A stretch of DNA of 64,000 nt from a virus (IMGVR_UViG_3300049855_000609:1-64000); one strand, 5' to 3'. Shown: positions 40,406 through 59,876, counted from the stretch's first letter. Numbers and translations are program-made. The notes: generated by a model not told the origin, from the letters alone.

Positions 40406-43400
40406 ATGGCTGGTACTAAATCAGAAGTTGTAACCGAAAAAGGTCAGAAGACTGCAGTAGAGGTCATGAATGATCTGATGAAAGGGACTGCAGATACTCC
40501 AAAACCTGTAGTTAAAACAACAGAGCCTCCTGTACTAAGTGCAGTGGATGTAATGAATAAGCTGATGCGCGGAGAATCTGTAGAAGTAAAATCTCCGGCT
40601 ACTTCCGGTTTTCTTTCTGCTGATGCCCCGGTATCTACGTCTTCCACAGGGCATACTCCTGATCTCCAAAAGAAACTGGAGGAAGGAATGGATATCAGTA
40701 ACGACATAGACAACTACTACATAAATAAAGCCCATGACCAGTCTTTTGTAGAGCAGTCTTTACTGACTACGGGAAGAATGGTATCTAATTTTTTGTATGG
40801 AGCTGTATCAGCAGCAGGAAGTACTTTAGATATGATCGATACTCCTATGATGCTTACTGGGGTGATCAAAGAGTATGGTAATATCCTGGGAGATGCTGCT
40901 AAATCAGCACAAGAATGGGAAGAGGAGAAATATCCTATTTACAAAAAAGATCCAAATACAACCATCTTATCCGGAGGGTTACTGGATCCGGGATGGTGGG
41001 GAAATATTATGGTAGGGGTATCACACTCTGCCGGTATATGGGGAGAATCTGTGGCTGCAACTTTAGGTGCTGGAGCTTTGACTGGCCCTACAGGATATCT
41101 GGCCGGCATAGGAGCTGGAATAAAAGCTATGAAATCTGCAAAAGGGTTGAGTAATATCTTGAAAGTAGCCAAGAACAGTGACCAGATCCGGAGATCAATC
41201 ATGCTCTCTACTGCCCTTCGTGGTATGAATGAGCTTCAAATGGAAGGTGTGGACAGTTATCACCAGGTATATAAAGGGATGATAGATAAAGGCATGTCCC
41301 ATGAGGAAGCTGTCAAATATGCTTCTGTGGCTGCTGCTAATACTGCCAGGCTTAACTTGCCTAAGGTAGCTTTGGATCTATTGCAAGCCAAGCTCCTTTT
41401 GGTGAATCCCATGTCAGGATCCACAGAAGGACTTTTAGAAAGTTTTCTTGGCAAACTACCAACAAAAATAGGAACTCCAACAAAGTGGATTGCAAATATG
41501 GGTGGAGAGTCTTTTGAAGAATATTACCAGGCTATAGCTCAGAATGAAAGTGTGTATAAAGCAGAGATGATGGCCGGCTTAACTCCTAAAACCACTTTGG
41601 GAGAGAGACTTAAAAAATATAACCGGGATGGTAATACCTGGGATGCTGCTTTCAGTGGCGCCGTAGGTGGCCTGGTATTAGGTAAACTGCAACAGAGTTT
41701 CCAGAAATGGGGAGAAGGTAAAGGAATCAAGGATCTTCGTTCTGAGCAAGAGAAGTTTGTACAGAATATGTCTGCCGGCATGACCCTGGAAATGGTGGAA
41801 AAAATAAGCCAGGCTGTACAGGAAGGGAAGCCGGAGAAAGCAAAAGCCCTTTTAAGAGATCTTTCAGAACATAAGGCTATCACTGCTACACATCTGGATG
41901 CCCTCACGGATAGGGATACTGCCTTCAACTCTTATATGACCTACCTGGATAAGACCATAGAGGCCGCGGAAAAAGGGGATATGGATGCTTTAGAAGGGTT
42001 GATTGTACCAGGAATGGATCTGCAGGATGTAAAGGAAAGATTTAAGGTCTACCGGGAAGATGCTCTTGCAATCAAAGAGTTATACGACAACAATACAGAA
42101 AAACATTCCCGGGAAGCAGTAGTACCTATAACCCGGCTGGAGTATGACATTAAACGCCTGGGGGAAGAGCAAAAGACTTTTCCTGCAAGACTGGCTGCTG
42201 AAAAAGCCAATATAGCCGATTATGACAGCCTTTCTACTATTGGCAAGCAACTGTATGACCTGCATGCAGAAAGGGCAGCTAAGAGTGTAAAGGGGCTTCC
42301 TGTGGAAGATCTGACCCAAGCTATCAATACTTTAACCCAAACACTCACTCCTGAGCAAAAGGCCCAGGACCAGAAGATCCTCAATTCCATTTCCTGGAAT
42401 AATGGATATACCAGAACAGTAGATGCCCAGATAGCCAATCAAAAGGCTTTGGATAACAAAAGGGAAAACCTGATCCTGTGGAAAGACAGCAAGTACCAGG
42501 AGATGTCTGTGGAGCAGAAAGATGAAAAGCTTATCCGGGATGCAAAAAGTTTGAAAGAGCTGGATGCCATAAGAATAGCCTTGGCTACTCAAAAGAGGCT
42601 TACCCAGAATAAAAGGAATATGATAGGAGAGAAAAGGAAAAACCTTTTATTGGAAGAAAAAGACAAGCCTGCCAGTTTAACAGCTTCTCCTACGGTGCCG
42701 GCTTTTGTAGCAAACCCAGCTACCATTACTCCTTTGGCCCCTGATGCTTTTGATACAGCTAATACCACGAACTCTATCCCCTCTGTTGAAGATACTACGA
42801 CAACAGCTACAGCAATACCTTCTCCGTCACCGGCAAATACCTCCATGACACAACCTACTGTGGAAGAGTTAAGCGCCATATTGAACCAGGCTATTGAACA
42901 GGGAGTACAGGAAGAAGATGAAGATAGTGATGACATCTTTGATACTGATGCCATTCCTGAAAAGGAGTTCCGCGACAAAATGAAAACCCTGGTGAAAAAA
43001 AGGGTGGAGGAATTGACAGCAGAACTGGGACACAGACCAAGTTTCACGGAATTCTTCCAGGACTTTGTAGACAAGACCTCTGAGCAAAAAGGGGATCAGC
43101 ACTTTGAGGCTTTAAAAACTGCCTGGCTGGACAATGGATACCCTAAGGTCAACTTTGATGCTATCAGGAATGCCATATCCCGGTCCAAAGTCACTTTCAG
43201 TGAGTTGTTGGGAACACTGGATCAGCAATCAGGAGAAGTAGTACAACAGCCGGCTTCTCAGGAAGCTGCCGGAGTAGAGTCTGTGTTATATGATACCAAG
43301 CTTTATCCACTTCCGGAGGGCCACAAGAACAGGTACAAGATAGACGATTTTACAAAATATAAACCGGGGACTAAGTTGTCCATGGAAATGATGGAAGATC

Positions 43401-46400
43401 CGGGAGAAACCATCACTATCTGGGACCAGGAACAGCCACGGGAAGTATCCCTGGCTAAATGGGTAGCAGAGAGTGGGGGATCTACACAGGATTATGTGGA
43501 TGATGTTCCTATTTTGGTGAAAGATGAGTCCGGTGAACCTGTTGCCACCATTCCTCAGGTATCTTTTTTTAAACGAGAATCCTGGGGAAGGGATTTACCT
43601 GAATCCATCCGGGAAGCAAAAAGACAGGATGCCATAAACAATGTCCGCAAACTTCGAACAGAGTTATATGGTGCTCCCTATAAAAAGGTCAGCATAGAGA
43701 TCACAGAAAGGAATTACGGCACTATGCTTACTTTCCCCGGGAAGGAGAAAAGACAAGTAAGTAAAGCAGATCCTACAGCTCCTATAGGGGTGAAAAACTC
43801 CGGCCCCAGTTTCACTACTACAGAGGGGATCATATCCACAGACCAGATATATAATCCGGGCAACACCCTGAAAATATCAGATGGTCACAAATATGAGTTT
43901 CGTAAAATGGGGGAGAAAAATGGTAAACCATTCTATTGGGCACAAAGGGTGCACTATGGCAATATCAGCCAGCAGGAAGCCCAGTCTGTTTACTATGCCT
44001 GTGCTTCTTATATCTTCCAGGATATCAGCGCGGAGCAAAACCCTAAGGCCAAGGAATTGTCTCACAAAATAAAAGACAAAGTAAAAGCTGCAGGAGGAGA
44101 TGCCGGTATGAATATCCACTGGGTATCTAACCTGGAGACTTACATTTCCCAGTTTGTGGATCTGTCTAATTTGAGTATTGCAGATGATGAGGCTCTTTTG
44201 ATAGCTTTACATTCTACTGCAGATCCCAGCCTTTTTAAAACAGAAGAAGAAAAAGAACAAGCTAAAGCAAGAATAGGAAAACCTTATATCATCACCCAGC
44301 ATGGAACTATTTTATTTGGAAGGCTTGGACAACAGATACAGGTAGAACAGTATGATAGCAATGGAGTGAAAAAATGGGTTACTCTTTCTTACCTGGAGAA
44401 TAACATGAAACTGTTTAAGGTAAGGTCACAGGATACTGCCATACAGGTAAAGAACAAAGGCTTATTGCTGGAAGCTTTGCAGAGACTGTTAAATGATACT
44501 ACGGAAAACGGGTTTAAGCAGGGAATGACCAAAAAGGAAAACCATCTGAAATCAAAGATACCTGTTTCCCTGATATCCCGTTCTGCGAATAATGTGGTGG
44601 ATGTTACTACTTATACCGGAACTGATGGTAAAAGTGATTATGCTTCTTATCTGAAGGACACCATGTATACAGTACTGGATGCTGTCAATGTGGGAACAAA
44701 GGAAGAACCCCGGTTTGTCAGCATGGTGAATAATGAGATCAAATTCAAGGCTTTTGTTCCTGAGGAAGCCCGGTTAAAAGCTGTACAAAAAACAGAACAG
44801 GTGATTGCGGAAGAGGTAAAAACCCCTGAGGGTGTAGCAGACATGTTCACAGAGCAGTACATGAGGGACCATGGTTACTCTGAAGAAGCTATCAGAAAAT
44901 TTTTAAGCGGGGATAACTTATATGATGTAGACCTGGAGAACTACAAAAGGGTGACAGATGAGATGATGCAACGGGTCAAAAAAAGAATGACCTCCATATC
45001 TGATCTGGACTCTTCTGACCGGCAGGAGTTAATCAACTATATTTCTCGTCAGATAGAACAGCGCTTAGATGGAAAAAACAAAGAGGTGATCTCCCGGGAA
45101 GATACCATAGGAGAAGTCACCCACTCTTTTGAGAATATCATACAGCCTAAAATGGATTTCTGGAGATCGGAGGTCAAGAAGCTGAAAGAGATCCTGGCAG
45201 CTAACCCGGCTTCCACCAGACTTCAATACCTCATTGATGATATGGAGTTAAACATCCATAATGTCATGATGGTCAGAAAGCATTGGAAATCCCTGATGGA
45301 AGACGTAGAACTGGAGCTGGAAAGGAATATTAATCTGAAGATAAAGGATTTCTCCGAGGAGTCTTACTCTAAAACAGCCATGGAAAGAGATCCGAAAAGC
45401 TCTGTCAGGCTGATGGTAAAACGTTTTCTTTCCCGGATCCCAAGATATGAGAACGGATACCGGAAAATAGGCTTCCTTGGTGTAGAGTCTTATCCCGGAT
45501 TTGACTATTACTTTGATCTCTTGGGAGAAGTGCTTAGTCCTCAGGCTGCAGAACAAGAAGGCAAAGCTACCAATATCAGTGTCCGGGCAGAGTGGGATGA
45601 TATTATTGCGCGGTTAAAACAGAACCAGGAGAGGTATCCCTGGATAAAATATCTGTTGGAACAGCTGGAAACAGCTCCCCAGCAGTTGAAAATACAGTTT
45701 ACTGTGGGCCTTGCCGGTAAACACAATATCCACCCGGAGTTTGTAATGATCAGCAAACACGGAACTGGAGTGTATCTCAGAAGCTGGGAAACCAACTACT
45801 CAGATAAGGTAAAGGTAATACGCCGGCAGTGGGAAAGCAACTCCAAAGACATTGATCTGTTCACCTATTCTGATGGAGAATACCGTATTAACATTGACCA
45901 TGCCAAATATCTTTTGGGTCAATACCAGATGTTCCTGAAAAGAGGACTTCATAAACTGAAAGAAGCTCAGGAGTGGCTGTCAGAGTTTGGTATAAACCTG
46001 TCCATGGATGCCATGGAATTCCTTAAAACAGATGGGTACACTTTATTTGATGGGAGTACCCGGATGAGGATCAAGGACCTGTTCCCGCAAGCAGAAACAG
46101 AAAAGAATAAAACAGCTTTTTCCGAGACAAACAATATCTTTAAAAAGCTGGCCTCTGTGCTTACCCTGGCTATAGCAGCTAATGAAGCTAATCCGACAAG
46201 GGCACTTTCCATAAGAGAAAGAAAGGACCTGGACCCTTTTGCCGCGGCACATGGCCTCATAGGAAGGCTGGCTTCTGTAGAAGCAAGGTTTTCCCTGGTA
46301 GTATCACCAAATGCTTACAGGGACTCTGGAAAGAATATTTATGCCATTACCCAGAACAAACTGGCTTGTCAGCAGGTAGAAGATCTTATCCGTAATGATG

Positions 46401-49400
46401 AAAGTGGAAAGGCACTGATAGACAGTAAACTGGAGCAGGTATTTGATGGAAAATCCATGATCCTGAAGCTGATGAAGGAGTCTCCGGAATTTGCTAAAAG
46501 CTTCCAGATAAGCCACATCAGCCTGGAGGCCCTGAAAGAAGAAAGACGGGATTCTCCTTTTAACATGGAAGTCACCCGGTTATCAGATGCAGATAAGCAC
46601 ATGATGACTATGGGCTTCATGCAAAGCACTACCCAGGGTTCTATTATGGTCTCCGATGAGATGAAGAAGATCTTCATGGGTATCCCTGTAAGAATGGCCA
46701 GGATGCTTCTTCCTACTATGTCAGACAAAGAACTGATGCTGGAGGTGCTTACTGCTATTTTAGCTCCTAATTCCAATAATTTCCGGGATTTAGAAGGAAA
46801 TACAGGACTCAGTGATAACCTTCTTCGGCTAATGTACTCCCAAATGGTAGAGCCGGAGCTGGATAGGATCATAGACTATCATATCCGCAAGGCCAGGGGA
46901 GAACAGTTCAATCAAAAAGACTACGATAAAGCTGCCCAGATATTTCATTTTATCCCGGAAATGAATAATGTTACCCGGATGGTACATGGGCAAGAGGTCA
47001 GGGTGATAGAATATTTGCAGGCCAATGCACACAATATGACTGCAGAGGAGATAGCAAGGGAAAAACAGAGATTGCAAATAGCCTCTTACAGGAAGATGGA
47101 AGATGTAGTTACTGATGAGGTGACCAATGTAGTGCACAACTGGTTCAAATGGGGCTTTGCCGTACAGGAGAAAAATGGATCTGTTTCTTTCCCTTATATG
47201 GACAAGAACTATGTGAATGATGCCGGGTGGAAAGGTACCTCAGAGGAGAAGCTGATGCACTTTGCCTATGACTATGTGGTAAATAACATGCTGACCAATG
47301 CCAACCACTTCATGATGTTTGCCGGTGATGTAGCCAATTTTGGAAAGGCAAATGCCTTTAGCACCAAAGATTTCGAAGACGGGAATCCCACCAGGCCCTT
47401 AGGTGATGGCTCTGTTTACAGGATGAACAGTGAGAATATTATTGGCAGAAACGTAGGAAAAAGGTTGGCCATGCTGATTGCCCCCGGGGATCCCCTGTTC
47501 AACAGTGAAAATGACAATTACATACAACTGTTCCTGGAGGATGCTAAAGTAGTGGCCCCTAATGCAGAGTACATGATCGATCTGCACTATGAAGGTAAAA
47601 GGACAGATAAAGTAAACGAGCTTTTATACCAGGCCAGAAATGAAGATGACAAGAAAAAAAGTGCCGTGGAAACCTTGTCAAAAATGTTTCCGGACATAGC
47701 CAGTTTTTTCAGCATAGAAAATACAGACAGCCAGGAAATGATGACTGCCGGAGAAGCTTTGAATGTGGCTTACCGGAGAGGCAATCTTTCAGAAGAAAAA
47801 TATAAAGAGCTGAAAGGAAAGATAAGAAGACAAAGAGCTGCAGAAAAGGAAGGAAAACCTATAGCAAAAGCTGATTTCATTTCCCATGAGGATATCAACC
47901 TGGTATTCCAGCCACAGAAGCCGGTTTATACAGGATATAAAATGGAAAATGGCAGGACCCGGATGGTATACATCAAAACCTCTGCTATCTCTTTACTTCC
48001 CCAGTTGACCGGCGCTGATACCCAGCTGTATGGTCTCCGTAGAAAAATGGAGGAAATAGAGGACAGTTCAGGGAGAAATGTAAGGGCTGTTTATGTTTCC
48101 GGGGCCAAGATAGGTTCTCCACAGAAAGCCTTCTCTGTCTGGAAAGCAAATGGGGATTTTAAAGAAGATGCCATCAATGTGCAAAGTGTGGTAGACAACC
48201 TCAATAGTGGAAATCCGGACTCCGCACTTATTTTACCAAGAAAGTTTTTCCGCATACAACAAGATATACCATTTAAATCCCACTATAAAGAAGAAGACCT
48301 GACCAAGCTGGGTACACAGATGATGAAGACCATCTTCGGTAACGGAGTTTCAAAAATAAAAGAAAAAGTCTTCAGCTATAAAGGTGAGATGCTTTCAGGA
48401 GAAGAACTCTACAAGGAGTATAATAGCCTGATCGATACCTGGATAAAAACAGAAAAGACAAAACTTTACCGGGAACTGGGGGTAGATGAACTTACCGGAA
48501 AGCCAAAGAACATGAGAAAATTCTCTGAGAAGCTTCATTCTATGTTGTTGAAAGAGGCCCGGAAAAGAGATTATCCTTTACAGGATCAGCAGGCCCTGGG
48601 ACTGGATATAAAAAGAGATGACCTTACCGGAGAAGTTTTAGATGTCCGGTTTACCATTCCTTTGTGGCTGACACCTAACTCCAACAGATATGAGTCCCTG
48701 CTAAACTCTATTGTAGGCAACAGGATGCTGAACCTGGAACTCCCCGGGGTTGGTTTGGTTACAGCTTCCAGTCAGGGGTTTAAGTGGAAAGCTACTGATG
48801 ATCTTACAGATGTTCAGAATTTCTCCGACATCATCTGGAGGAAAACCCGGTTCAATGGAGAATTGAGGGCCTTTGATACTGATGCCGGCACTAAGGCACA
48901 GATACTGGTACCTTCTAAATTTCGTGGCAGAGATGGTAAGCTGATAGATCTTCTGGATCCAAAAAACGGATACTTTTATGAGGAAGGAGGAAGGAAATTT
49001 CTAAATGAAGACCGGATAAAGGCAGAGCTGCTGGAGTCTACCTCTTTCCGTATCCCTACTTCAGGACATGTGTCTATTGCTTCTGTAGAGATAGTCGGAT
49101 TTCTGCCTCCACAGAATGGGGATATTATGGTGGTGCCTCCTAACTTTCTTCCTCAAAAGGGACTTGACTTTGACGTAGATAAGGAATACCTGTACAACTT
49201 ATGGCATGCCCTGGATGAAGAGGACAATATTGTTTCCCTGGAAGACGGTATAAAGATGACCTACCAGGAAATAGAAATGCTGGAAAAGAACATCAATGAT
49301 CAGATAGAATCCATGCGGGACTATTACAAGGACAACCAGGAAATGCTCAATGAGATAGATGAATTGAAAACAGATCTGGAAGTCAGGAAGACCCTAAGCT

Positions 49401-52400
49401 TTGATGGAAAAGAGTCCAAGAAAGCTGTCCGGGAAATACACACCAAGATAAAAGAGCTGAAAGAAGAATTGCTTGTATTTGGCAATGAGGTATTGGATGA
49501 AAAAGTAGGTGGAAAATACTGGGAAGTAAATGATAACCTGAAAAAAGAGATCAAGAAAGCTTTGACCAAGCTGGCAGAAATGGAAGATTATAAAACCCAA
49601 TTTCTGCAAAATGACCTGGTTAGAGTATACAGCTCTGTTATGTCTACAAAGGACAAAAGAGTTCAAAGAAAGATAAACAAGGTGCTGTCTATGGATTTTG
49701 TCCGTGACCAGGCTTCTTATATTGAGCAGACAGCTACCGGGAAAAAGACCCAGTTCTCTATGCTGACTCCCGGATTTCAAACAGAAAAAATGAAACAGGG
49801 AGCTGCAGGAAACGGAACCATAGGTGTGTACTCCAACTTCCTGGTAGTACACGGCCTGTCTCAGCAGACAGAAGCTCCTTTGAGGCTGATGACCAAGATA
49901 TGGAATGAGGAAAAAGAGAAAATGGAAACGGTCCCTTACAGTCTTGTTATAGGAAAGTTCAAATCTGATGGTTACCTGGGCAGAGGTCTTACCCTGGATG
50001 GTGCAAGAGATGTCTCTTCTGTTTATGAAGAAAGACAACAGACCTCATTGGATAATGAGAATGAAGGTATTCTGGGCCGGGTAGGGGTAAGTATGAGTAC
50101 GATCAATGTAGACTGCATCCTGGTAGGACAAGGATATGACAGGGATACTTTTGAAATAGGGGACCTGACAGATGTGAATGTTCAGAAAGAGATCCAGAGT
50201 AATCCTTTTGGGGTAATTGAGAAAAATGGAAAAGCTTACAGAGAGGTCAGTATTCCTTACTTGCTTTTATCTCAGCCACTGGTTAAAAAATATATTCAGG
50301 AGGTACAGGATTCAAACTCCATTACCCGGGGATATGAAAAAAATAAAAAGAGAAAGATACTGGAAAAGCTGATAGAAGAGTATGGTGGACTGGAAAACTT
50401 CGAGCTGGCAAAAGAGGATCATATCCGGAGAATGCTTACCGGTGAGAACCTGGCCAGGAACCTGGAAGGGCTTACAGATAATATGGTACAGCTTTCCGCG
50501 CTGGGGATAGTGGAGGAAATAGAAAGACTGTTCTCCAGTTCTATGACCTCTTTACAGCAAAGATTGAATATACAGGGGAATGAGCTGGGTATTTCTAATC
50601 TGGAAGCCAGGCAGAAATACAAGAATCTCTTCAAGTTCAACAGCAACTTTCCTATCCAAAATGCTTCTAAGCTGGTAGGAGATTATCTGTCTAAAAAGAA
50701 AGCTGCCCAGTTACTTTCTACTGAAGCGGGTAAAGAGCTGATAAGAAAAAATGGATTTATCATCCTGGAGTCTCCTGTTCCTGGAGAAAGAGAGGTGGTA
50801 ATGAGGCCAACTTCATTCTCCGGTTCCCTGATGGTATATGCACCAATAGCCAACAAAGAGCTTTGGGATAATTTCTTTCCTTATAAGAGTGCTGTAGTGG
50901 AGGAGTCTGTTACTGCCCTGCTGAATATTTTCGGTGGTGTGAAAAAAGGATCAGACATCAGTGATAAATCCATACTGGATACCACTTACCTCATCATGGA
51001 AGAGATGAAAAAATACCTCAACTCCAGTGAGGATCTGGGTACTTTCTCCGGAGATCCACAAATGCAAAGGGCCAGGCTTACCATATCGGATGAGAATAAT
51101 GTCTCTTTACCTAAATACATGCGGGAATTATTCAGCATGAACAAAGAGGGCCTCTCCGTAGAAGAATCCAAGGGCCTTGACATGGTAAAAAACAATAAGG
51201 TCACCTCCCGGCTATTCTACAATTTTGATAAGGGAGCTCCTTCTACCCTGAAATTTGATAATAACCGCGGGGAAGACTCCAATGAGTCTTATAAATACCA
51301 GGCTATAGTGGAATTGCTGGAGAAGAATTTACCACTGCCGGCTTGGAATAAACAGCCTTATACTACCCGGCAGCTGGGCATAGACCTGATCAGCTATGCT
51401 TACCTGGAAGGAGGAGTGCAGAAAGCTATCCAGTACATCAAATACATTTCTATACCTGTTCTGGAAGAGATCGGGTATGCTACCACTTCCCGGAAATGGC
51501 AGGAAGCCATAGTCTATGGAGATGAGCATGTCATAGAAGGTCTTTTTGGTGGCCAGGGATATTACTCCAATCTGGCAAAGCAGGTGGTACAGCATAACCC
51601 CGGAAAGGTAAAATACCAGCTGACCAAAGAACAGATCACAAATACAAAGGATGTGGAAGGTAAACCTTCTGTGATCCTTGGAAATACAAACAGTTTTGTT
51701 CCGGAAGAGTTTTCCTTCATTGAAGATGATATGGTAGAACCTTATGCTACCATATACAATGAGCTGGGTACTGGCCGGGATAAGCTGATGCTCTTTCAAT
51801 GGGATATGGAAAACAGCCGGTATACCAGGATCCCTACTTTCAACTACTTTGGGATGAGCCAGTATTCCATGAAGACAAACCATGTGACTCCACTGACTGA
51901 AGTCAGATGGACACCGGTGAAGCCTTCTTCAGGACAGGTGCTGCCTACAGAAGATAATACAGATCGGTCTTCTTTATTTGAACTGGGTACCGGGGATGCT
52001 ATTAAGATCCTGGATGCCATTGCTAAAGCTGATTTTGGGACCACCTCTTTTCTGGCTTCTTATACGGCAGGTTTTGTAGACAAGACCCTCAAAATAGATA
52101 TAGTAGATGAGACTAAAGAGGGAGATACTCCTTTCAGAGCTGTCTACAATCCAAGCAGTAACACCCTCAGGATAAGCCGTAAATTCCTCAATAACCATAA
52201 ATATTCCCCGGAGGAAATAGCTTACACGATAATGGAGGAGATGCTCCACTCTGTTATGAGCAGGGAGTTGATCAAGTACTTTGATGCAAAAGGAAAACTC
52301 CTGGTCCCGGAACAGTATCTTCCTCCACATATACTCCGGTTACACCGGCTTTTACTGGAAACACAATCTTTCTTTGAAAAGATGCCACAGGAGCAAAGAG

Positions 52401-54859
52401 ATGCCCTTTTTGGAGATGATATTTCGAAGGAAACCCGGGATATGCATGAAAGAGAGCTGTTTGTTTACACGCTGGGTAACATACATGAGTTTGTAGCCAA
52501 GATCCTGGCTAAGCCTCATATTCGGGAAGCCATGTCAAAAGTGCCCTATAAGAAGACAAATATGAGCCTTTTGGAGAGGTTCTACCAGATCTTCCAGGAG
52601 TTCTTAGAGAAAGCCGGCATGAAGTTCGACAAGGATACAGTGGCTTTCCATGCTGTAGCAGAGATATTTTCCTGGCTGGAGCAGAACAATGGAGATACTG
52701 TACAAAGTAATTCTATACAGGAACAGGTAAAAACTGCTCTCAGTAACAGCATCCTGACAGTAGAACAGGAGCTGGAAAACCGGAGATTAGAAGCAGAAGA
52801 GTTCCGCAAGAGCCTGAAAGGGGCACAGCCTACAGTAAGACAGAAAAAGGAATTCATCGTTTCCAAGCTGGAAAATGGAGAGGAGATCTTAGGGACTATT
52901 CAGCAGGGGTTCAATGGAGGATATGATTTCGTGGACAAGAAAGGCTCCCGGGTAAGGTTCTATAATCACTCCGGGAATATTACCCAGGAAGATTACAATA
53001 AGACTGTGAGATTGGTACTGGCCCCTGAAGTGAAAGCTGAAGACGGGAAAGTTTTCCGTGATGTGATACAAGTATGGGCAGGGGATAAATTCTTTGGCAA
53101 TGTACAGGAAACAGACTGGAAAGAAACTCCTGCTGTTGATCTGCTTAAAAAAATAGATCTGATTGAAACCCGCATAGCTAATGGAACAGCTGATCCCCAG
53201 GAGTATAAGGATCTGGATGAATACCGGAAACAATTGGGTATGGCTCCCAGATATGGGATAACAGGAGCTAATTTTGAAACTCAAAGAGAGCAATTACCAA
53301 AAGATCCTACCGACAAACTAATCTATGTATTTGAAAAGCTGGGGAAGAAAAATGTAGATAAGATTCTGGAAGGCAGAGATGAAGATGGAAATGCTGATTA
53401 TTTGGTAGCTTATATTCCGGATAACATGACCAAAGAAGAATTTGAAAATACGGATCTTGATGAGTTTGAATTTGAAGATGCTACTTATGATACAATTATG
53501 CGTCTTTTAAAAGGAGTAAAAAAGTTTAACGGAACTGCAAGCTTTTATATAGAAGAGGCTATTTCTGACCCTGATAATTATAGGTCTATTGCTGCAGAAA
53601 ATTTTCTTTTACAGATAGCAGATAAAATAAATGAGATCAACCCAACCATACTAAACCCTGATCAAGGGAGTTTATTTGACCGGGCTTTACCTGAAAAAAG
53701 GGATGATTTCCTTTTTGATGTGGATATGCCTGAAATGGGGGCTGCCTTGGAGATCGTTTATGGTCAGTGGCCTGGATTGGAACAAGAACTCCCTAAAGAA
53801 AAGTATATGGAATGGGTTAACACTATCTGGCCGGACTCCTATGTGAAAAGGGTGGTCTATCATGGAACAGGTTCAGATATAGAAAAACTGGAACCTTCTC
53901 CTAATTCCGGGCTTATCTTCTTCGCGGCTAATCATGAATACAGTGCTGTTTACGCTGAGTGGAGAAAACAGAATTTGGAGCATGAAAAGTCTTGGAGGAA
54001 AGAAACTGCTAAAGTATATGACTTTTGGAATAAAGCTTTATTCCGGACAGATGTAGATGCTATTCCTGCACAAATGCTGGTGGATGAGACTATTGATGTT
54101 TTACTGAAATACAAGAAAGAAACTCCTGAACGGATATTCAAGGGCCTTTTTGGTGATCTTCCTTCTAATTTAGTTGAGTTACAAAAAGAGATCATAGAGA
54201 ACTACAATGAAAAGCAATTTATATGGGATAACGGGGATGAAGATGTTGCAGACTATGAGGACTATGTAGAGATGCAGGAAAGACAAAACTGGACAGAAGA
54301 ACAGTGGCAGGCTTCTTATATAGCAGAACAAAAAGAACTGGAAAAAGAGGCTTTTGTTTATCAAAGGGATAAGGAAGAAGTATACAGACTGATGAGAAAG
54401 AATTTCTATAAATTAGAAAATCAGATCAATGGCCCGGCATACAAGAAGGTAAAAAAATATTTTGAGGTTCCGGCAAAAGCTAAGGTGCTTCCTGTACTTT
54501 TAAATGTAAAAAACCCACAAATAATTGATGAAGAGATCACCACTTACAACATAACAAGTGGTATTATCCCTATAGATCCTGCAGCAGATGCCATAATAGG
54601 AAAGGATGCTCCTTTATATGCAGACTCTTTTACCGGCAAGGATTGGAAAGAAGAAGAGGTTTTTGTGATCAAGAACCCGGATCAGATATATTACTTAGGA
54701 TCCCCGGAGGATATAGCCATGGCCAAGCAGTTTGCTAATGGCAATAAATACATCTCCGTAAATGACCCTACTCTGTTCTCTGATAATGTGGAAGATGTGG
54801 CTGAAGAGGAAAAATTAAGCTGGAAAGACCGGGAAAATAAAACAGATTGTCCGTTTTAA
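40406..54859 (+). CDS. Giant virion RNA polymerase polyprotein with C-terminal ART domain
   Basis: 4817 residues in one frame. Residues 1-450 resemble an ejected internal protein with hydrophobic runs (AATLGAGALTGPTGYLAGIG near 215-240); 753-820 is a Pro/Thr linker. The RNA polymerase core centres on RIPTSGHVSIASVEIVGF (about 2882) and KGLDFDVDKEYLY, where D2921, D2923 and D2925 match the Mg-binding DxDxD of two-barrel polymerases. MKQGAAGNGTIGVYSNF (about 3130), YEERQQTSLDNENEG (about 3207) and LSQPLVKKY (about 3288) follow, as in crAss polymerases. Around 3944-3948 is a zincin-like helix, EEMLH. Residues about 4470-4790 are ADP-ribosyltransferase-like (VYHGT with H4486; LLNVKNPQIID; VFVIKNPDQI). 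Virion-carried polymerase for early transcription is the family role. Confidence 0.88.
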   Translation: MAGTKSEVVTEKGQKTAVEVMNDLMKGTADTPKPVVKTTEPPVLSAVDVMNKLMRGESVEVKSPATSGFLSADAPVSTSSTGHTPDLQKKLEEGMDISNDIDNYYINKAHDQSFVEQSLLTTGRMVSNFLYGAVSAAGSTLDMIDTPMMLTGVIKEYGNILGDAAKSAQEWEEEKYPIYKKDPNTTILSGGLLDPGWWGNIMVGVSHSAGIWGESVAATLGAGALTGPTGYLAGIGAGIKAMKSAKGLSNILKVAKNSDQIRRSIMLSTALRGMNELQMEGVDSYHQVYKGMIDKGMSHEEAVKYASVAAANTARLNLPKVALDLLQAKLLLVNPMSGSTEGLLESFLGKLPTKIGTPTKWIANMGGESFEEYYQAIAQNESVYKAEMMAGLTPKTTLGERLKKYNRDGNTWDAAFSGAVGGLVLGKLQQSFQKWGEGKGIKDLRSEQEKFVQNMSAGMTLEMVEKISQAVQEGKPEKAKALLRDLSEHKAITATHLDALTDRDTAFNSYMTYLDKTIEAAEKGDMDALEGLIVPGMDLQDVKERFKVYREDALAIKELYDNNTEKHSREAVVPITRLEYDIKRLGEEQKTFPARLAAEKANIADYDSLSTIGKQLYDLHAERAAKSVKGLPVEDLTQAINTLTQTLTPEQKAQDQKILNSISWNNGYTRTVDAQIANQKALDNKRENLILWKDSKYQEMSVEQKDEKLIRDAKSLKELDAIRIALATQKRLTQNKRNMIGEKRKNLLLEEKDKPASLTASPTVPAFVANPATITPLAPDAFDTANTTNSIPSVEDTTTTATAIPSPSPANTSMTQPTVEELSAILNQAIEQGVQEEDEDSDDIFDTDAIPEKEFRDKMKTLVKKRVEELTAELGHRPSFTEFFQDFVDKTSEQKGDQHFEALKTAWLDNGYPKVNFDAIRNAISRSKVTFSELLGTLDQQSGEVVQQPASQEAAGVESVLYDTKLYPLPEGHKNRYKIDDFTKYKPGTKLSMEMMEDPGETITIWDQEQPREVSLAKWVAESGGSTQDYVDDVPILVKDESGEPVATIPQVSFFKRESWGRDLPESIREAKRQDAINNVRKLRTELYGAPYKKVSIEITERNYGTMLTFPGKEKRQVSKADPTAPIGVKNSGPSFTTTEGIISTDQIYNPGNTLKISDGHKYEFRKMGEKNGKPFYWAQRVHYGNISQQEAQSVYYACASYIFQDISAEQNPKAKELSHKIKDKVKAAGGDAGMNIHWVSNLETYISQFVDLSNLSIADDEALLIALHSTADPSLFKTEEEKEQAKARIGKPYIITQHGTILFGRLGQQIQVEQYDSNGVKKWVTLSYLENNMKLFKVRSQDTAIQVKNKGLLLEALQRLLNDTTENGFKQGMTKKENHLKSKIPVSLISRSANNVVDVTTYTGTDGKSDYASYLKDTMYTVLDAVNVGTKEEPRFVSMVNNEIKFKAFVPEEARLKAVQKTEQVIAEEVKTPEGVADMFTEQYMRDHGYSEEAIRKFLSGDNLYDVDLENYKRVTDEMMQRVKKRMTSISDLDSSDRQELINYISRQIEQRLDGKNKEVISREDTIGEVTHSFENIIQPKMDFWRSEVKKLKEILAANPASTRLQYLIDDMELNIHNVMMVRKHWKSLMEDVELELERNINLKIKDFSEESYSKTAMERDPKSSVRLMVKRFLSRIPRYENGYRKIGFLGVESYPGFDYYFDLLGEVLSPQAAEQEGKATNISVRAEWDDIIARLKQNQERYPWIKYLLEQLETAPQQLKIQFTVGLAGKHNIHPEFVMISKHGTGVYLRSWETNYSDKVKVIRRQWESNSKDIDLFTYSDGEYRINIDHAKYLLGQYQMFLKRGLHKLKEAQEWLSEFGINLSMDAMEFLKTDGYTLFDGSTRMRIKDLFPQAETEKNKTAFSETNNIFKKLASVLTLAIAANEANPTRALSIRERKDLDPFAAAHGLIGRLASVEARFSLVVSPNAYRDSGKNIYAITQNKLACQQVEDLIRNDESGKALIDSKLEQVFDGKSMILKLMKESPEFAKSFQISHISLEALKEERRDSPFNMEVTRLSDADKHMMTMGFMQSTTQGSIMVSDEMKKIFMGIPVRMARMLLPTMSDKELMLEVLTAILAPNSNNFRDLEGNTGLSDNLLRLMYSQMVEPELDRIIDYHIRKARGEQFNQKDYDKAAQIFHFIPEMNNVTRMVHGQEVRVIEYLQANAHNMTAEEIAREKQRLQIASYRKMEDVVTDEVTNVVHNWFKWGFAVQEKNGSVSFPYMDKNYVNDAGWKGTSEEKLMHFAYDYVVNNMLTNANHFMMFAGDVANFGKANAFSTKDFEDGNPTRPLGDGSVYRMNSENIIGRNVGKRLAMLIAPGDPLFNSENDNYIQLFLEDAKVVAPNAEYMIDLHYEGKRTDKVNELLYQARNEDDKKKSAVETLSKMFPDIASFFSIENTDSQEMMTAGEALNVAYRRGNLSEEKYKELKGKIRRQRAAEKEGKPIAKADFISHEDINLVFQPQKPVYTGYKMENGRTRMVYIKTSAISLLPQLTGADTQLYGLRRKMEEIEDSSGRNVRAVYVSGAKIGSPQKAFSVWKANGDFKEDAINVQSVVDNLNSGNPDSALILPRKFFRIQQDIPFKSHYKEEDLTKLGTQMMKTIFGNGVSKIKEKVFSYKGEMLSGEELYKEYNSLIDTWIKTEKTKLYRELGVDELTGKPKNMRKFSEKLHSMLLKEARKRDYPLQDQQALGLDIKRDDLTGEVLDVRFTIPLWLTPNSNRYESLLNSIVGNRMLNLELPGVGLVTASSQGFKWKATDDLTDVQNFSDIIWRKTRFNGELRAFDTDAGTKAQILVPSKFRGRDGKLIDLLDPKNGYFYEEGGRKFLNEDRIKAELLESTSFRIPTSGHVSIASVEIVGFLPPQNGDIMVVPPNFLPQKGLDFDVDKEYLYNLWHALDEEDNIVSLEDGIKMTYQEIEMLEKNINDQIESMRDYYKDNQEMLNEIDELKTDLEVRKTLSFDGKESKKAVREIHTKIKELKEELLVFGNEVLDEKVGGKYWEVNDNLKKEIKKALTKLAEMEDYKTQFLQNDLVRVYSSVMSTKDKRVQRKINKVLSMDFVRDQASYIEQTATGKKTQFSMLTPGFQTEKMKQGAAGNGTIGVYSNFLVVHGLSQQTEAPLRLMTKIWNEEKEKMETVPYSLVIGKFKSDGYLGRGLTLDGARDVSSVYEERQQTSLDNENEGILGRVGVSMSTINVDCILVGQGYDRDTFEIGDLTDVNVQKEIQSNPFGVIEKNGKAYREVSIPYLLLSQPLVKKYIQEVQDSNSITRGYEKNKKRKILEKLIEEYGGLENFELAKEDHIRRMLTGENLARNLEGLTDNMVQLSALGIVEEIERLFSSSMTSLQQRLNIQGNELGISNLEARQKYKNLFKFNSNFPIQNASKLVGDYLSKKKAAQLLSTEAGKELIRKNGFIILESPVPGEREVVMRPTSFSGSLMVYAPIANKELWDNFFPYKSAVVEESVTALLNIFGGVKKGSDISDKSILDTTYLIMEEMKKYLNSSEDLGTFSGDPQMQRARLTISDENNVSLPKYMRELFSMNKEGLSVEESKGLDMVKNNKVTSRLFYNFDKGAPSTLKFDNNRGEDSNESYKYQAIVELLEKNLPLPAWNKQPYTTRQLGIDLISYAYLEGGVQKAIQYIKYISIPVLEEIGYATTSRKWQEAIVYGDEHVIEGLFGGQGYYSNLAKQVVQHNPGKVKYQLTKEQITNTKDVEGKPSVILGNTNSFVPEEFSFIEDDMVEPYATIYNELGTGRDKLMLFQWDMENSRYTRIPTFNYFGMSQYSMKTNHVTPLTEVRWTPVKPSSGQVLPTEDNTDRSSLFELGTGDAIKILDAIAKADFGTTSFLASYTAGFVDKTLKIDIVDETKEGDTPFRAVYNPSSNTLRISRKFLNNHKYSPEEIAYTIMEEMLHSVMSRELIKYFDAKGKLLVPEQYLPPHILRLHRLLLETQSFFEKMPQEQRDALFGDDISKETRDMHERELFVYTLGNIHEFVAKILAKPHIREAMSKVPYKKTNMSLLERFYQIFQEFLEKAGMKFDKDTVAFHAVAEIFSWLEQNNGDTVQSNSIQEQVKTALSNSILTVEQELENRRLEAEEFRKSLKGAQPTVRQKKEFIVSKLENGEEILGTIQQGFNGGYDFVDKKGSRVRFYNHSGNITQEDYNKTVRLVLAPEVKAEDGKVFRDVIQVWAGDKFFGNVQETDWKETPAVDLLKKIDLIETRIANGTADPQEYKDLDEYRKQLGMAPRYGITGANFETQREQLPKDPTDKLIYVFEKLGKKNVDKILEGRDEDGNADYLVAYIPDNMTKEEFENTDLDEFEFEDATYDTIMRLLKGVKKFNGTASFYIEEAISDPDNYRSIAAENFLLQIADKINEINPTILNPDQGSLFDRALPEKRDDFLFDVDMPEMGAALEIVYGQWPGLEQELPKEKYMEWVNTIWPDSYVKRVVYHGTGSDIEKLEPSPNSGLIFFAANHEYSAVYAEWRKQNLEHEKSWRKETAKVYDFWNKALFRTDVDAIPAQMLVDETIDVLLKYKKETPERIFKGLFGDLPSNLVELQKEIIENYNEKQFIWDNGDEDVADYEDYVEMQERQNWTEEQWQASYIAEQKELEKEAFVYQRDKEEVYRLMRKNFYKLENQINGPAYKKVKKYFEVPAKAKVLPVLLNVKNPQIIDEEITTYNITSGIIPIDPAADAIIGKDAPLYADSFTGKDWKEEEVFVIKNPDQIYYLGSPEDIAMAKQFANGNKYISVNDPTLFSDNVEDVAEEEKLSWKDRENKTDCPF

Positions 54860-54875
54860 CCATTAAATTTGAACC

Positions 54876-57800
54876 ATGAGTACAGATTGCGGAGGAAGAA
54901 AATTACCCTTTAAAACAGCAGAAGCTAATGCTAAATCCTGGATGAGATCCGAGGGTTTTATCAATAATTTTTTGGAGATCACAGCAGCCCCGGAGGAAAA
55001 AGAAAAGGAGTTTTTCCGGATAGCAGAGAGCCTTAAAAAACAAGGGATTCAGAAGTATGGCATTCTGACAGACTGGGTATACATGGCCGGCCAGGGGAAG
55101 ATAACTGTAAACCGCGAGGCTTTTAAAGCTGCAGATGTACTCAATGGGGTTATCTATAATAACGAAGTAGATCCTTCTAAATACCTGGATTCCCGCAAAG
55201 ATCAGAACCTCTATGATGTGGATGATGAGAACTTTTTTCAGGCCCAGGATACTCCCCAGGATGACTTTGATATAGAAAGTACCACAGACACCAATATCAG
55301 GGCCAGCCTTCCCCGGTTATTACAGTTAAAGGAAAAGCTTGCTGCTATAATAAGAAGGGAAATAGCTGAGATGAACAGCATCATGGAGAATTTCAAGGAA
55401 GACAAGGAGGTTTATACCAAAGCTTTGAAGAGAAGAGGAGAGCTTCAAAAGAAGCTGGATGGGACTGTTATTGTAAACTCCCTGGGAATAGATCCGGTGA
55501 TAGAAAAGGGTTTGCTCAAAGAAATAGAAGAACTGAAAGCCTGGAACAGCCATGATCCGGCAATGTTTGGGCCCATGATAGAGTCTGAACTGCACAGGCT
55601 GGAAAAGATCATGGAACATGACCTGGACTCTTCCGAGAAAATAGAAGAAGCCAACCTGATCATTGATTTTGTTCTTGCCATGAATAACTTTGACCGGCAG
55701 TTTGTGGAGAAGGATAACCATCCTATCTATCATGCCGGAGAATTGTATGTAGGGGAAACCCTGGTGCTGACAGATACTGACCGGGAATACTATGCCAGGT
55801 GGGCTGTAAGGGCTTATGAAGCCAAGAGTAAACTATTCAGTGCGGAAAAGAGAGAAATAGAAAGAAGGGTGAACTCTGATGTAAATGTCCAAAAGATGTT
55901 TGACGGAAAGCAGTTTACTTTTGAAGAGATCACAGAACTGAAAGATGGGTTAAAAGATATAGACTGGATATCCAGTGCCGTGCTGGATATCACTTCCGGG
56001 TATATGACCCATAATGGTATGCTGCCCCATGTAATGCTGAAAATGCTCTCTGATGCCCTGGCAGATGCCCAGATAGAGCAGAGGGCTTTGGAAGAAACCC
56101 TGGACCAGACAGTAGAAAAGGCACAGGAAGTGCTTTCCAGTAAGAAATTTGAAGGAGGAAAGTATCGATTAGCTTCCCTGGGTATCATTGGAATAAAAGG
56201 GGTTTCCTGGAGCCTGTACTGGCAAGAAGGAGAAAATGGCCTGCGGACAGGTTTTCTGGTAAACAAACTTTCATCCAAATGGATGAACCTTCAGGAAGAA
56301 ATAGAAAAGAAATACAGGAAGATGACCTATGGTCCAAAGACAAAAGCAGAGCTGGACCTGGCTAATAAAAAGAGAAATGACTGGCTGACAGAAAACGCCA
56401 AGCTCATCCAGTCTTCTTTGCTCCCGGAGATCAGGGATGAAGTATTCAAAGTCCCTCCTGCCGGCCAGGAAAATCCCCTGGCTGTTCTTCAGAAATATTT
56501 TCAGGCACCGGATAACCAGCAAAAAGCAACCCAGCATAAAGCAGAGCTGATATCCATTATAGGAGAAGAATATTATAAGGAAAGAGTAGAAAAACAAAAA
56601 GAATTACTCTTGGAATTTGTCACCCAGAGGGAGATCTTCATAGAAAGTAAGCTAAAAGAATATGCTATTCCAGCAGGGGCCACAGAACAGGACCTGAGAA
56701 ATCTTTATCCGGATCTGGACAAAGCCATCAATTTCTGGGAAGCAAAATATGATCCTTTTATTGCAGAAGAGTACTCTAAGACAGGATATCCTTCCAGTAA
56801 GGCTGCCGGACAAAACCACTCTTTCCACTCTTATTATACCTATAACCAGCATATTCCTCTCCGGCATAAGCCGGATGCCTCAGGAAGTATGGTGGAAACA
56901 GGTTTTTACGATAATAACTTTGAGCTGATAGAAAATAATCAAGCTCTGCTGGATTTTTACCGGGTAGCCAGAAAGTGGGCCACTACTATGAGAAATAACT
57001 TTGGCCTGGGTATCAAAAAGATGTTGCCGGAAGGCTTTATCCCTTTTATGGAAAGGACCCTGGGAGAGCAGATATGGAACTCCGGAGAGGTATCTGAAAT
57101 GCTCACTCTGGCAGGAAAAATAAAAGCAATCTATACCCATGTATTTGATTATTTGAAAATGGGTATGGGAGTGAGGGAAGAAGATACTTTTGACTATGCG
57201 GAGAGAGATCCGTTGACGGGAAAGAAAACTTACAAAATAAACGACACCTTTATAAAACAAAGCCGGAAGAAAACAGAAAATGCCTTTGCTTTGAACCAGG
57301 CTGTTTTTGTAAAGAATTATAAAGGACTACGCGGAAGAGATTATCTGGGGCTTATAAAAAGGAACTCAAAAAGAATGGTTTACATAGACCATCCGGATCC
57401 TAAATTCAATAATGCGGATGCCATGGCACAGCTTATCTCTCCTTACCTGGGACTGGAGACTCCTCTTACGGGGAAAGAGCTGATAGAAAGATATGGGGTA
57501 CTGGAAGACAGGGATAGGTCAGGAGCCATGAAAGCTACTATACCCTTAGGAGAGATCCTTTATGATTTTTCCCAGCACCAGGTAGTACAGGAACAGTCTT
57601 TTGATTTACCGAAGATCATCCGTTTTTATGGTAAAGCAGCTGCAGATTATAAAGCCCGGACAACAGTGTTACCCACTCTGGCCTTTATGAAAAGGTATTA
57701 TGAAGAGATCAATGATATTGAGACCACGAATACCGGGGAGCAGAAAAAAGGGAATTTCCGGGGAAGAGAAAAGCCTATTACCCGGGGTTTCAGAAAAAAT

Positions 57801-59876
57801 GCCATAGCCCAGCTGGAAAGCTGGTTCAACATGCGTGTTTTAGGAGATGAAAGTATAGACCATTTTGGTACAACAACCCCTTCTGAGAAAAACATCAATG
57901 ATGAGGCCAGTGTTGTAAAGAGGACTCTAAAGGGTTTTGGCATAGGAAAGAAAATGATGACTGCCCGGGAGGTAGAACTCAGCAAACAGATAGATGAGCT
58001 CCTTCTTACAGAGAAAAATGTAGAAAGAATTGAAACTCTGAATACTATTAAAAAAGGCTTGGGAAGGGTAGTTGCAGTTTCTGCTATCCTGGAATCCATA
58101 GGTACTTTTCTGAGAACAAAAGGTTTGGCAGTAAACCTGAATTCAGCAACTACCAACTTGGTAGAAGGACAGCTGGCCAATGGCCTGATGGCAGAGACCT
58201 GGGATGATCCGGATTCCATAAACACGGTTACCCTGTCTGAGATAGTGGCTTCAGATCTGAGGAAAAAAGTAGGGGCAAATGGGATAGAAAAAGTGCTTAT
58301 TGTACAGCACATGCAGGATTTCTGGAACTTGCTTCAGGACTCTTCCAATGACCTGCAACGGTCTACTATAAAATCCTCTCTGTCAAAAATAGACAAATAT
58401 GGTATCTATTATCCGCAAAGAAAAACAGAGAGTTATAACCAGATACCTCTGATAGCTGCAAAGCTGAAGCAGTTCAAGATAAAAGATAAAGACGGAAACG
58501 AAGCTCCTATACTGGATGCCACCGGGGAAAACTCCGCTATGGAATGGAATTTTGAAGAAGGCCGGCCAAGGTTAAAAGCTGCTTTTCGTACAAAGGAGAA
58601 TATCGATAACTGGGAGCATGCCAATGGAAAGCAGTTCAAGGACTTTCAATCGGAGACCAGAACACTTATCCGGAGAACACACGGGGATTTTGACCCTATA
58701 ACAGGACAAAGGATCAAAAGGAATGTCTTTGGTAAGCTGGCCATGATGTTTAAAACCTGGCTTCCTATGGAGGTCTGGAAGCGTATTGCAGCAGAGCATG
58801 TGGATATTATGGGTGGTACCAGATTCAAAGGCCGGTGGAGAAGCCATACCATGATCACGGCTTCCCTGATGGGGGCCATAGGTGTGGCTCCATTTTTAGG
58901 CATTCTTCCCGGGGCTATAACTGCAGGAACCATAGGCGCCATAGCAGGAAGGGCAGTAGGTAAAAAACCCTCTATTGGAGTTCTTAAAGAGTTGTTATAT
59001 GTTACAAAGATACAAATCCGGAAGCTGATCGGATTACCTGTCAATTACACCAGCCGGATATTTGTCAAAAAAGATATTTTAGGGACAAGGCTTACTAAAA
59101 AGGAGTTTGCCAAAATGCAAAATGAAGCCAAAAAGCAAGGCTTCGATGAGCTGGATTTTAAGAACTGGCAGTCCAATATGCAGGAGATCTCCAATATGCT
59201 GGTGTTTTTAGCACTTATTCTGTTTGTCAAAGGGCTTACCTGGGATGATGATGATGATGAAGAAGATCCGCGGAGATACACCCACAACATGCTGATCAAC
59301 ATGCTCATCAATTTTGCCGGCAATCAGTACAGCTTTATTAACCCGGCTACCTTATACAAAGACCATGTAGCCGGAGTAGCCATAGTGCGGTTTATTGGAG
59401 ATATTGAAAAAACCCTGAGGTTAGTAGAGCCTTACCTCAATGATGAGGACTATGAAACAAAAGGCATTCACCGGGGAGAGCACCGGTTTCCAAGGCAGTT
59501 AAGAAAAACTTTCCTCCCTTCTTTGTTCAGAGAACCATGGACCCTTGGCTTTGGTACTTTGATGGAAGACCAGTTCACTCCTTTGCCAATGGATAAGATG
59601 TTCTATTCCGAAGACAAAAAAGACAAAACCTGGGTAATGCAGCAAAGGGCAAAATATGATCTGATGTTGGAAAAAGAAATGGGTATCACAGATGAGGCAA
59701 AGAGAAAGAAGATGCTGGATTATGTCTTTAAAAAGAAACAGGACAAGAAAAAAGACATCAATGAAAGCTATACAGATGTCAAAAACAGGACAGAGAATGT
59801 AGAAGAGGAACAACTTCTGGAAGGGCTGATGATCCTGGACAAGCAAGGTAAATTCGAAAAGAAAAAGAAAAAATAA
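54876..59876 (+). CDS. Giant virion/ejection protein with C-terminal membrane segments
   Basis: 1666 residues. It starts MSTDCGGRKLPFKTAEANAK and is mostly charged helix with several coiled coils (residues about 145-280, 320-480). From about 1270 there is KLAMMFKTWLPMEVWKRIAA, then GGTRFKGRWR, followed by a hydrophobic stretch (about 1324-1362, MITASLMGAIGVAPFLGILP onward) and another at about 1440-1455 (MLVFLALILFVKGLTW) flanked by an Asp/Glu run. This resembles the last large cargo protein of crAss-like phages, which may form a channel across the cell envelope. It ends at the convergent terminator. Confidence 0.75.
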   Translation: MSTDCGGRKLPFKTAEANAKSWMRSEGFINNFLEITAAPEEKEKEFFRIAESLKKQGIQKYGILTDWVYMAGQGKITVNREAFKAADVLNGVIYNNEVDPSKYLDSRKDQNLYDVDDENFFQAQDTPQDDFDIESTTDTNIRASLPRLLQLKEKLAAIIRREIAEMNSIMENFKEDKEVYTKALKRRGELQKKLDGTVIVNSLGIDPVIEKGLLKEIEELKAWNSHDPAMFGPMIESELHRLEKIMEHDLDSSEKIEEANLIIDFVLAMNNFDRQFVEKDNHPIYHAGELYVGETLVLTDTDREYYARWAVRAYEAKSKLFSAEKREIERRVNSDVNVQKMFDGKQFTFEEITELKDGLKDIDWISSAVLDITSGYMTHNGMLPHVMLKMLSDALADAQIEQRALEETLDQTVEKAQEVLSSKKFEGGKYRLASLGIIGIKGVSWSLYWQEGENGLRTGFLVNKLSSKWMNLQEEIEKKYRKMTYGPKTKAELDLANKKRNDWLTENAKLIQSSLLPEIRDEVFKVPPAGQENPLAVLQKYFQAPDNQQKATQHKAELISIIGEEYYKERVEKQKELLLEFVTQREIFIESKLKEYAIPAGATEQDLRNLYPDLDKAINFWEAKYDPFIAEEYSKTGYPSSKAAGQNHSFHSYYTYNQHIPLRHKPDASGSMVETGFYDNNFELIENNQALLDFYRVARKWATTMRNNFGLGIKKMLPEGFIPFMERTLGEQIWNSGEVSEMLTLAGKIKAIYTHVFDYLKMGMGVREEDTFDYAERDPLTGKKTYKINDTFIKQSRKKTENAFALNQAVFVKNYKGLRGRDYLGLIKRNSKRMVYIDHPDPKFNNADAMAQLISPYLGLETPLTGKELIERYGVLEDRDRSGAMKATIPLGEILYDFSQHQVVQEQSFDLPKIIRFYGKAAADYKARTTVLPTLAFMKRYYEEINDIETTNTGEQKKGNFRGREKPITRGFRKNAIAQLESWFNMRVLGDESIDHFGTTTPSEKNINDEASVVKRTLKGFGIGKKMMTAREVELSKQIDELLLTEKNVERIETLNTIKKGLGRVVAVSAILESIGTFLRTKGLAVNLNSATTNLVEGQLANGLMAETWDDPDSINTVTLSEIVASDLRKKVGANGIEKVLIVQHMQDFWNLLQDSSNDLQRSTIKSSLSKIDKYGIYYPQRKTESYNQIPLIAAKLKQFKIKDKDGNEAPILDATGENSAMEWNFEEGRPRLKAAFRTKENIDNWEHANGKQFKDFQSETRTLIRRTHGDFDPITGQRIKRNVFGKLAMMFKTWLPMEVWKRIAAEHVDIMGGTRFKGRWRSHTMITASLMGAIGVAPFLGILPGAITAGTIGAIAGRAVGKKPSIGVLKELLYVTKIQIRKLIGLPVNYTSRIFVKKDILGTRLTKKEFAKMQNEAKKQGFDELDFKNWQSNMQEISNMLVFLALILFVKGLTWDDDDDEEDPRRYTHNMLINMLINFAGNQYSFINPATLYKDHVAGVAIVRFIGDIEKTLRLVEPYLNDEDYETKGIHRGEHRFPRQLRKTFLPSLFREPWTLGFGTLMEDQFTPLPMDKMFYSEDKKDKTWVMQQRAKYDLMLEKEMGITDEAKRKKMLDYVFKKKQDKKKDINESYTDVKNRTENVEEEQLLEGLMILDKQGKFEKKKKK

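Follow-up and report, generated by a model that had tools for sequence, protein, structure and literature searches.

What is a domain resembling an ADP-ribosyltransferase (ART) doing at the end of a virion RNA polymerase (vRNAP)? The question is raised by a 64,000-nucleotide viral stretch, IMGVR_UViG_3300049855_000609:1-64000 (hereafter the window; bases 1-64000 of a 92,563-base IMG/VR virus record), for which a preliminary description had proposed an ART domain at the C-terminus of the virion polymerase. The two are fused in one reading frame, the domain has homologues in a large ART subfamily of phages, 'YLDTIFPDSKVKDIVYHG ... VFEPEQIHILGS', its predicted structure has an ART-like core, and the fusion recurs on several vRNAP lineages at different positions. 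We consider it probable that the tail is an ADP-ribosyltransferase of the ART-PolyVal type that is ejected with the DNA and modifies host proteins early in infection.

Judged by its sequence, the product of 40406-54859 is a crAss-like two-barrel virion RNA polymerase. This open reading frame (ORF) matches phrog_16227, 'virion structural protein' (7.7e-233), and a two-sequence profile (A1) of its polymerase core matches PDB 6vr4, the solved phi14:2 polymerase (E 8.6e-19). Together with this homology, GLDFDVD at amino acids 2919-2925 supplies the DxDxD motif by which crAss-like vRNAPs are recognized. The fusion to a virion-type RNA polymerase was correctly described at the outset, as a single frame spans both.

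40406..54859, + strand: ORF of the 4,817-amino-acid crAss-like vRNAP with the ART domain at its C-terminus (PHROG, core profile, FpV4 gp32 alignment)
49166..49180, + strand: DFDVD catalytic motif of the two-barrel polymerase, amino acids 2921-2925 (aligned with phi14:2, Kehishuvirus and cr130_1)

Virion cargo status and delivery with the DNA are established for crAss-like polymerase proteins (PMC10172136, PMC10136315). Mass spectrometry found the crAss001 polymerase-associated proteins packaged (PMC10172136), and the phi14:2 record annotates its polymerase protein as packaged, also by mass spectrometry. By analogy with these two phages, the window vRNAP would be packaged and ejected as well.

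The ART domain occupies the end of the ORF. The motifs quoted in the preliminary description are all in frame there, where it had placed them and in the same order.

53798..54757, + strand: ART-PolyVal-type ADP-ribosyltransferase domain, amino acids ~4465-4784 (profiles, relatives, predicted fold)
53855..53869, + strand: VYHGT, strand 1 with H4486, amino acids 4484-4488 (V, Y, H and G identical in 46/46 relatives)
53915..53962, + strand: IFFAANHEYSAVYAEW, strand 2 and the following helix, from amino acid 4504, including Y4516 (in-frame motif)
53981..54475, + strand: helical insertion of ~165 amino acids inside the ART domain, amino acids ~4526-4690 (predicted all-helical by AlphaFold)
54488..54529, + strand: LPVLLNVKNPQIID, strand 3/4 motif, from amino acid 4695, including N4700 (in-frame motif)
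54659..54700, + strand: VFVIKNPDQIYYLG, strand 5/6 motif, with VFVIKNPDQI from amino acid 4752 (P, Q and L invariant)

This order is typical of ART-PolyVal, as had been claimed; the spacing, which had been called typical too, is not, with ~165 residues between the Tyr motif and LPVLLNV. PF18760 (ART-PolyVal) is the sole Pfam match of the full-length protein (E 0.026) and the best Pfam match of the tail alone, to which the hidden Markov model gives 19.3 bits (E 0.0021; gathering score 31.2). The tail falls under the Pfam cut-off because the insertion splits the domain, and its score rises to 30.1 bits (E 9.7e-7) once the insertion is removed. Other sub-threshold Pfam matches in the tail (OmpH, KIX, Binary_toxB_3 and similar) were dismissed as chance. 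The insertion also made direct searches with the whole tail unproductive: IMG/VR, phages and plasmids yielded no useful relatives. No homologue of the insertion itself was found; its site holds variable insertions in other relatives too.

To collect relatives, IMG/VR was searched with a DNA pattern representing the strand-1 motif, and 96 stretches were returned. Of the loci fetched, 80 gave ORFs that plainly form one subfamily, 'YSQYLDTIFPDSKVKDIVYHGT ... G(F)(Y)F(T/S) ... A..Y ... INxKNP ... VFEPEQIHILGSKQDIEGFKxF', and the window agrees with this consensus at either end (YMEWVNTIWPDSYVKRVVYHGT; VIKNPDQIYYLGSPEDIAMAKQFA). Built from 46 of these relatives, with the window left out, a profile scores the window tail at 73.6 bits, where the best of 2,000 shuffles reached 12.5. 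Because the collecting pattern resembles the VYHG motif of the window, and itself required V, Y, H and G, the comparison was repeated with everything up to VYHG removed; the tail then scored 44.2 bits, and none of 5,000 shuffles exceeded 15.1. In a 47-row alignment of the same 46 relatives plus the window, 44 rows match PF18760 at E <= 0.01, the best at 3.6e-16, and one row matches the PARP catalytic domain PF00644 (1.2e-6). It is through these intermediate relatives that we infer membership of the window domain in PF18760.

AlphaFold was uninformative on the tail as a single sequence, with a predicted local distance difference test score (pLDDT) of 35. With the 47-row alignment the mean pLDDT was 74, and most strands of the ART core reached ~80-93. 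The predicted strands follow the order expected for such a core (H-strand, FFA-strand, helices, PVLLNV, AIIGKD, VFVIKN, IYY). The top Foldseek matches in the PDB were the ART domains of PARP4, PARP1 and PARP2 (best probability 0.98, E 0.028), which we regard as suggestive rather than decisive. In BFVD the best E was 1.3e-6, with polyvalent phage proteins among the leading matches and the cr130_1 ART-PolyVal and an N4-like vRNAP further down. A search of PDB chains with the ART sequence profile gave no match, so the link to PARP rests on the fold comparison and on one relative's Pfam match. Lack of an ART fold would have told against the proposal, but the model contains a predicted ART core with PARP catalytic domains as weak top PDB matches. 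Profile and relatives bear out the ART-PolyVal-type domain first proposed, and the fold does so weakly.

The active site is less orthodox. The catalytic His, whose absence would have told against the proposal, is present as H4486 in VYHGT; all 46 relatives have H here, a letter that the collecting pattern required. Y4516 lies after strand 2 (Y in 28 and F in 8 of the 46 relatives), and the residue inside the strand itself is F. The position of N4700 holds N in 42 relatives and D in 4, and P4758, Q4760 and L4764 are invariant among them. These are motifs of the H-Y type, found here instead of the R-S-E active site of the T4 Alt/ModA/ModB family. The acidic residue in strand 5 of ART-PolyVal is D (Iyer et al., PMC5512222). 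In the window, the two candidate positions for it hold V4752 and N4757; E4751 adjoins the former, and three Glu (4749-4751) directly precede the strand. The third catalytic position varies across the relatives, so the homology stands, while neither canonical catalysis nor membership among active enzymes is claimed. The homology and fold of the domain are well supported, and catalytic competence of the window copy is putative.

The same ART lies in the same polypeptide in 12 other DFDxD polymerase ORFs (G010-G021), plus G046. Its position within the vRNAP varies: C-terminal in the window, G011 and G013, N-terminal in G010, and central in G019. On a polymerase-core tree the ART-fused label needs at least four changes, all forced by well-supported branches. 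G019 pairs with phi14:2 and G012 with Kehishuvirus, and the window and G011 fall in the FpV4 clade, of which FpV4, L004, L005, L006 and L009 are without ART. Most of these polymerases were collected by the ART motif, which biases the sample to ART carriers; the tree therefore shows repeated gain or loss of the ART on crAss-like vRNAPs, not its frequency. The close clade was also sampled independently of the ART, with a pattern around the polymerase catalytic motif; of the 42 records so drawn, 9 had an ART-profile match anywhere in the record. The domain can also stand alone. In G048 (L207, G048:50000-57000) a gene of its own, lying between those of the vRNAP and the following cargo protein, encodes the ART as a 1,035-amino-acid protein that has a zincin-like motif, WHEFAH, and a Cys at each end. 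In G011 (L139+L140) the ART is fused to the vRNAP, and the C-terminal tail is common with the G048 ART protein at 57% identity, with GIIK(S/T)KCD kept.

More than one match to the ART profile was seen in several records (four in G012, three in G017, two each in G014, G016 and G019); some pairs are pieces of one insertion-split domain, and others are separate genes. The vRNAPs of G020 (L141) and G021 (L071) have the catalytic motif SDFDGD instead of DFD(I/V)D, which resembles the NADFDGD of bacterial beta-prime.

This scattered distribution on the polymerase tree favours a later addition of the ART, which the preliminary description had proposed from base composition. The tail is indeed more AT-rich than the rest, with 38-39% GC in codons 4201-4800 against 40-46% elsewhere in the ORF, and a GC content at third codon positions (GC3) of 31-37%. 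However, the AT-rich stretch begins ~260 codons ahead of the domain, and GC3 is low in codons 1-600 too (36-40%). Composition alone is therefore no proof of later addition, and AT-richness was ruled out as such.

Upstream of the ART, the same polypeptide has two further accessory regions.

52127..52735, + strand: zincin-like domain region (sequence comparison with FpV4-group relatives)
52760..53200, + strand: small domain, amino acids 4119-4265, between the zincin region and the ART (blastp E 6e-8)

By definition, a polyvalent protein is an injected polypeptide that combines several enzymatic domains of unrelated kinds, and a zincin-like metallopeptidase is usually among them. Here one ORF, presumably injected, holds the polymerase, the zincin-like region and the ART. 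The zincin motif is EEMLH at amino acids 3944-3948 (52235-52249), where FpV4-group relatives have HE(V/L/F)(I/L)H (HExxH); because the first His is lost, the metallopeptidase of the window vRNAP is probably inactive. The small domain recurs in the ART-bearing vRNAP of G016, there before the polymerase. Some ART-bearing vRNAP polypeptides also contain, by eye, a RecD/PIF1-like helicase-looking segment (GRGGTGKTT, IIIIDECSMID). Such segments were seen at amino acids ~5960-6060 of the G011 vRNAP, in the ORF after the ART in G054 (L206) and in the vRNAP tail of G048 (L207).

How might such a fusion act? The vRNAP-ART polypeptide would be packaged and ejected with the DNA, as is established for the phi14:2 and crAss001 polymerase proteins. 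In the host cytoplasm, the ART would use NAD+ to modify host proteins within the first minutes. Likely targets would be host RNA polymerase, other transcription or translation proteins, and defence proteins, with host RNA polymerase or a defence protein as the foremost candidates, and the host's own transcription would be held back during early-gene transcription by the vRNAP. Being fused, ART and polymerase would be certain to arrive together at a fixed ratio.

Several observations weigh against this scheme. The PF18760 score stays below the gathering cut-off even without the insertion (30.1 versus 31.2), and no Foldseek E-value in the PDB is below 0.001. The nearest cultured relatives, the FpV4 group, are without the ART domain, which is hence dispensable for the vRNAP of that clade, and we know of no experiment on any crAss-like ART. 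V4752 occupies what we take, by motif, to be the position of the PARP catalytic Glu (E in 13, T in 7, V in 6, N in 5 and Q in 5 of the 46 relatives), and the Glu of FEPEQ, kept in 38 of 46, is N4757. These two substitutions would suit a window copy that keeps the ART fold but is catalytically dead or weak, and that serves the polymerase tail as a module for binding, folding or spacing. So would the large insertion within the fold, and the degraded zincin motif of the same protein (EEMLH for HExxH) makes decay of accessory enzymes plausible. Yet H4486, Y4516, KNP and NPxQI are retained, the Glu residues directly before the strand count against decay, and a canonical acid is not the rule at a third position that is variable throughout the subfamily; we regard a dead copy as unlikely. 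That the tail has no ART domain and resembles one by chance is hardly credible. It would explain the sub-threshold Pfam score, but the shuffle controls, the relatives, the predicted fold and the Foldseek matches contradict it.

An active ART could have other targets. It might modify the phage's own machinery (by vRNAP automodification, or by acting on neighbouring cargo or nucleic acid) as a switch after delivery. The physical fusion to the polymerase speaks for this, and with the ART before, after or beside the polymerase domain, contact with phage proteins would be the common factor. We nevertheless find self-modification quite improbable: many ART-PolyVal polyvalent proteins are without a polymerase (PMC5512222), which fits host targets better, and no sequence feature indicates a self-target. 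Alternatively, the ART may inactivate or mask a host defence protein at entry. Its patchiness across and within clades (as in the 9 of 42 close-clade records) is expected of accessory anti-defence genes, and polyvalent proteins have been viewed as effectors in conflicts (PMC5512222). That the ART is found again and again in the vRNAP cassette points instead to a role tied to the start of transcription, and no defence target is known, so counter-defence seems rather unlikely. It is, however, a choice of target within the explanation that we prefer, early modification of host proteins by an ejected ART, and for this reason the confidence given to the two overlaps.

The ends of the cargo proteins bear on how the ART might travel. 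Cys is rare in these giants: 4 residues in the 4,817 amino acids of the window vRNAP and 1 in the 4,287 of the FpV4 vRNAP, against ~1.1% Cys in the terminase and the 1,621-amino-acid virion protein of the same window. N4-like vRNAPs are Cys-free (PMC3715699, PMC2784036). The Cys residues that remain in the giant cargo proteins are mostly at the ends.

54848..54850, + strand: Cys4815, third residue from the vRNAP C-terminus (residue position)
54876..59876, + strand: next gene, encoding a 1,666-amino-acid cargo-like protein whose only Cys is at position 5 (ORF, Cys count)

It was predicted beforehand that phi14:2 gp67 would have a C-terminal Cys only, and exactly one was found, at residue 1797 of 1797. 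Consecutive cargo proteins of ten phages (Steigviridae, Intestiviridae, Suoliviridae, Fipvunavirus and the window) were then surveyed for Cys within the terminal six residues; the loci were the window, phi14:2 gp67/gp66/gp65 (L198, L147, L146), L001, L002, L199, L201-L204, L148 and L016. A terminal Cys was present at 24 of 26 adjoining ends and 0 of 20 outer ends (Fisher p 4e-11, nominal because ends within a phage are non-independent and the phages are related). One exception is in Kehishuvirus, with Cys at -9, and the other is crAss002 gp33, whose start codon is probably annotated too early (MSC at residue 33).

Since near-Cys-free cargo carries its terminal Cys at adjoining ends, the ejected proteins may form a disulfide-linked, head-to-tail train. 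The ART would be an exchangeable unit of it, with polymerase, ART and partner threaded through the tail as one; we put this forward tentatively, as an idea with somewhat less than an even chance of being right. Cargo proteins fused into one ORF would, hypothetically, not need the Cys pair, as in G011 (fused) versus G048 (separate ART, Cys at both ends). If the terminal-Cys pattern, of which no published account in crAss-like cargo was found, is functional, it offers a simple physical answer to the ordered exit of several very large virion proteins. The three ORFs directly upstream of the vRNAP, 33648-35885 (745 amino acids), 35896-37965 (689 amino acids) and 37967-40378 (803 amino acids), have no Cys, and are on that account possibly ejected cargo too.

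T4 Alt, to which the domain had been likened, is an ADP-ribosyltransferase delivered with the phage DNA (PMC5512222). The likeness holds for delivery only: Alt is a separate protein of the R-S-E class, whereas the window ART belongs to the H-Y class and is part of the polymerase polypeptide. Among crAss-like phages, Cellulophaga phage phi14:2 gp66 (6vr4) belongs to the same polymerase family as the window vRNAP, but has no ART, and its cargo is split over gp67/gp66/gp65. The closest cultured vRNAP is gp32 of the Flavobacterium phage FpV4 (Fipvunavirus; YP_009594088.1), with 28% identity over amino acids 1374-4101 and the same gene order. Unlike the window protein, it stops just past the zincin domain, and no ART was found in the whole FpV4 genome. 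Chuhaivirus cr130_1 (Crassvirales; NC_055901.1) does have an ART-PolyVal, gp80 (YP_010113265.1; PF18760 8e-24), with a HELLH zincin, in the transcription block and directly adjoining the vRNAP gene gp79. It differs from the window in being a separate gene with the ART near the N-terminus, no large insertion and TAG read as Q. In UniProt, ART-PolyVal-like is already the automatic name for proteins of cr130_1, cr116_1 and cr271_1.

A direct precedent for the fusion is known on an N4-like vRNAP, that of Roseovarius Plymouth podovirus 1 (CBX87992.1; Iyer et al. 2017, PMC5512222). Its ART was detected again here with PF18760 (9.8e-9). Both phages have a domain of the ART-PolyVal/Tox-ART-HYD2 type in a giant vRNAP that also holds a metallopeptidase region; in the window this region is probably inactive and injection of the polypeptide is presumed. 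The Roseovarius polymerase, however, is of the single-subunit T7/N4 type, unrelated in fold to the crAss-like two-barrel DFDxD enzyme, and its ART lies upstream of the polymerase, whereas that of the window is C-terminal and interrupted by a large insertion. For crAss-like vRNAPs, no such fusion was found described in the open-access literature. Among the viruses of the human gut, crAss-like phages predominate, and for cultured members the prediction is that host proteins, possibly RNA polymerase, will be ADP-ribosylated in the first minutes, before any new phage protein is made. Since ART domains are attached at several places of the crAss-like polymerase tree, and the N4-like enzyme is an unrelated RNA polymerase, joining a host-modifying enzyme to the first-firing polymerase looks like a convergent infection strategy.

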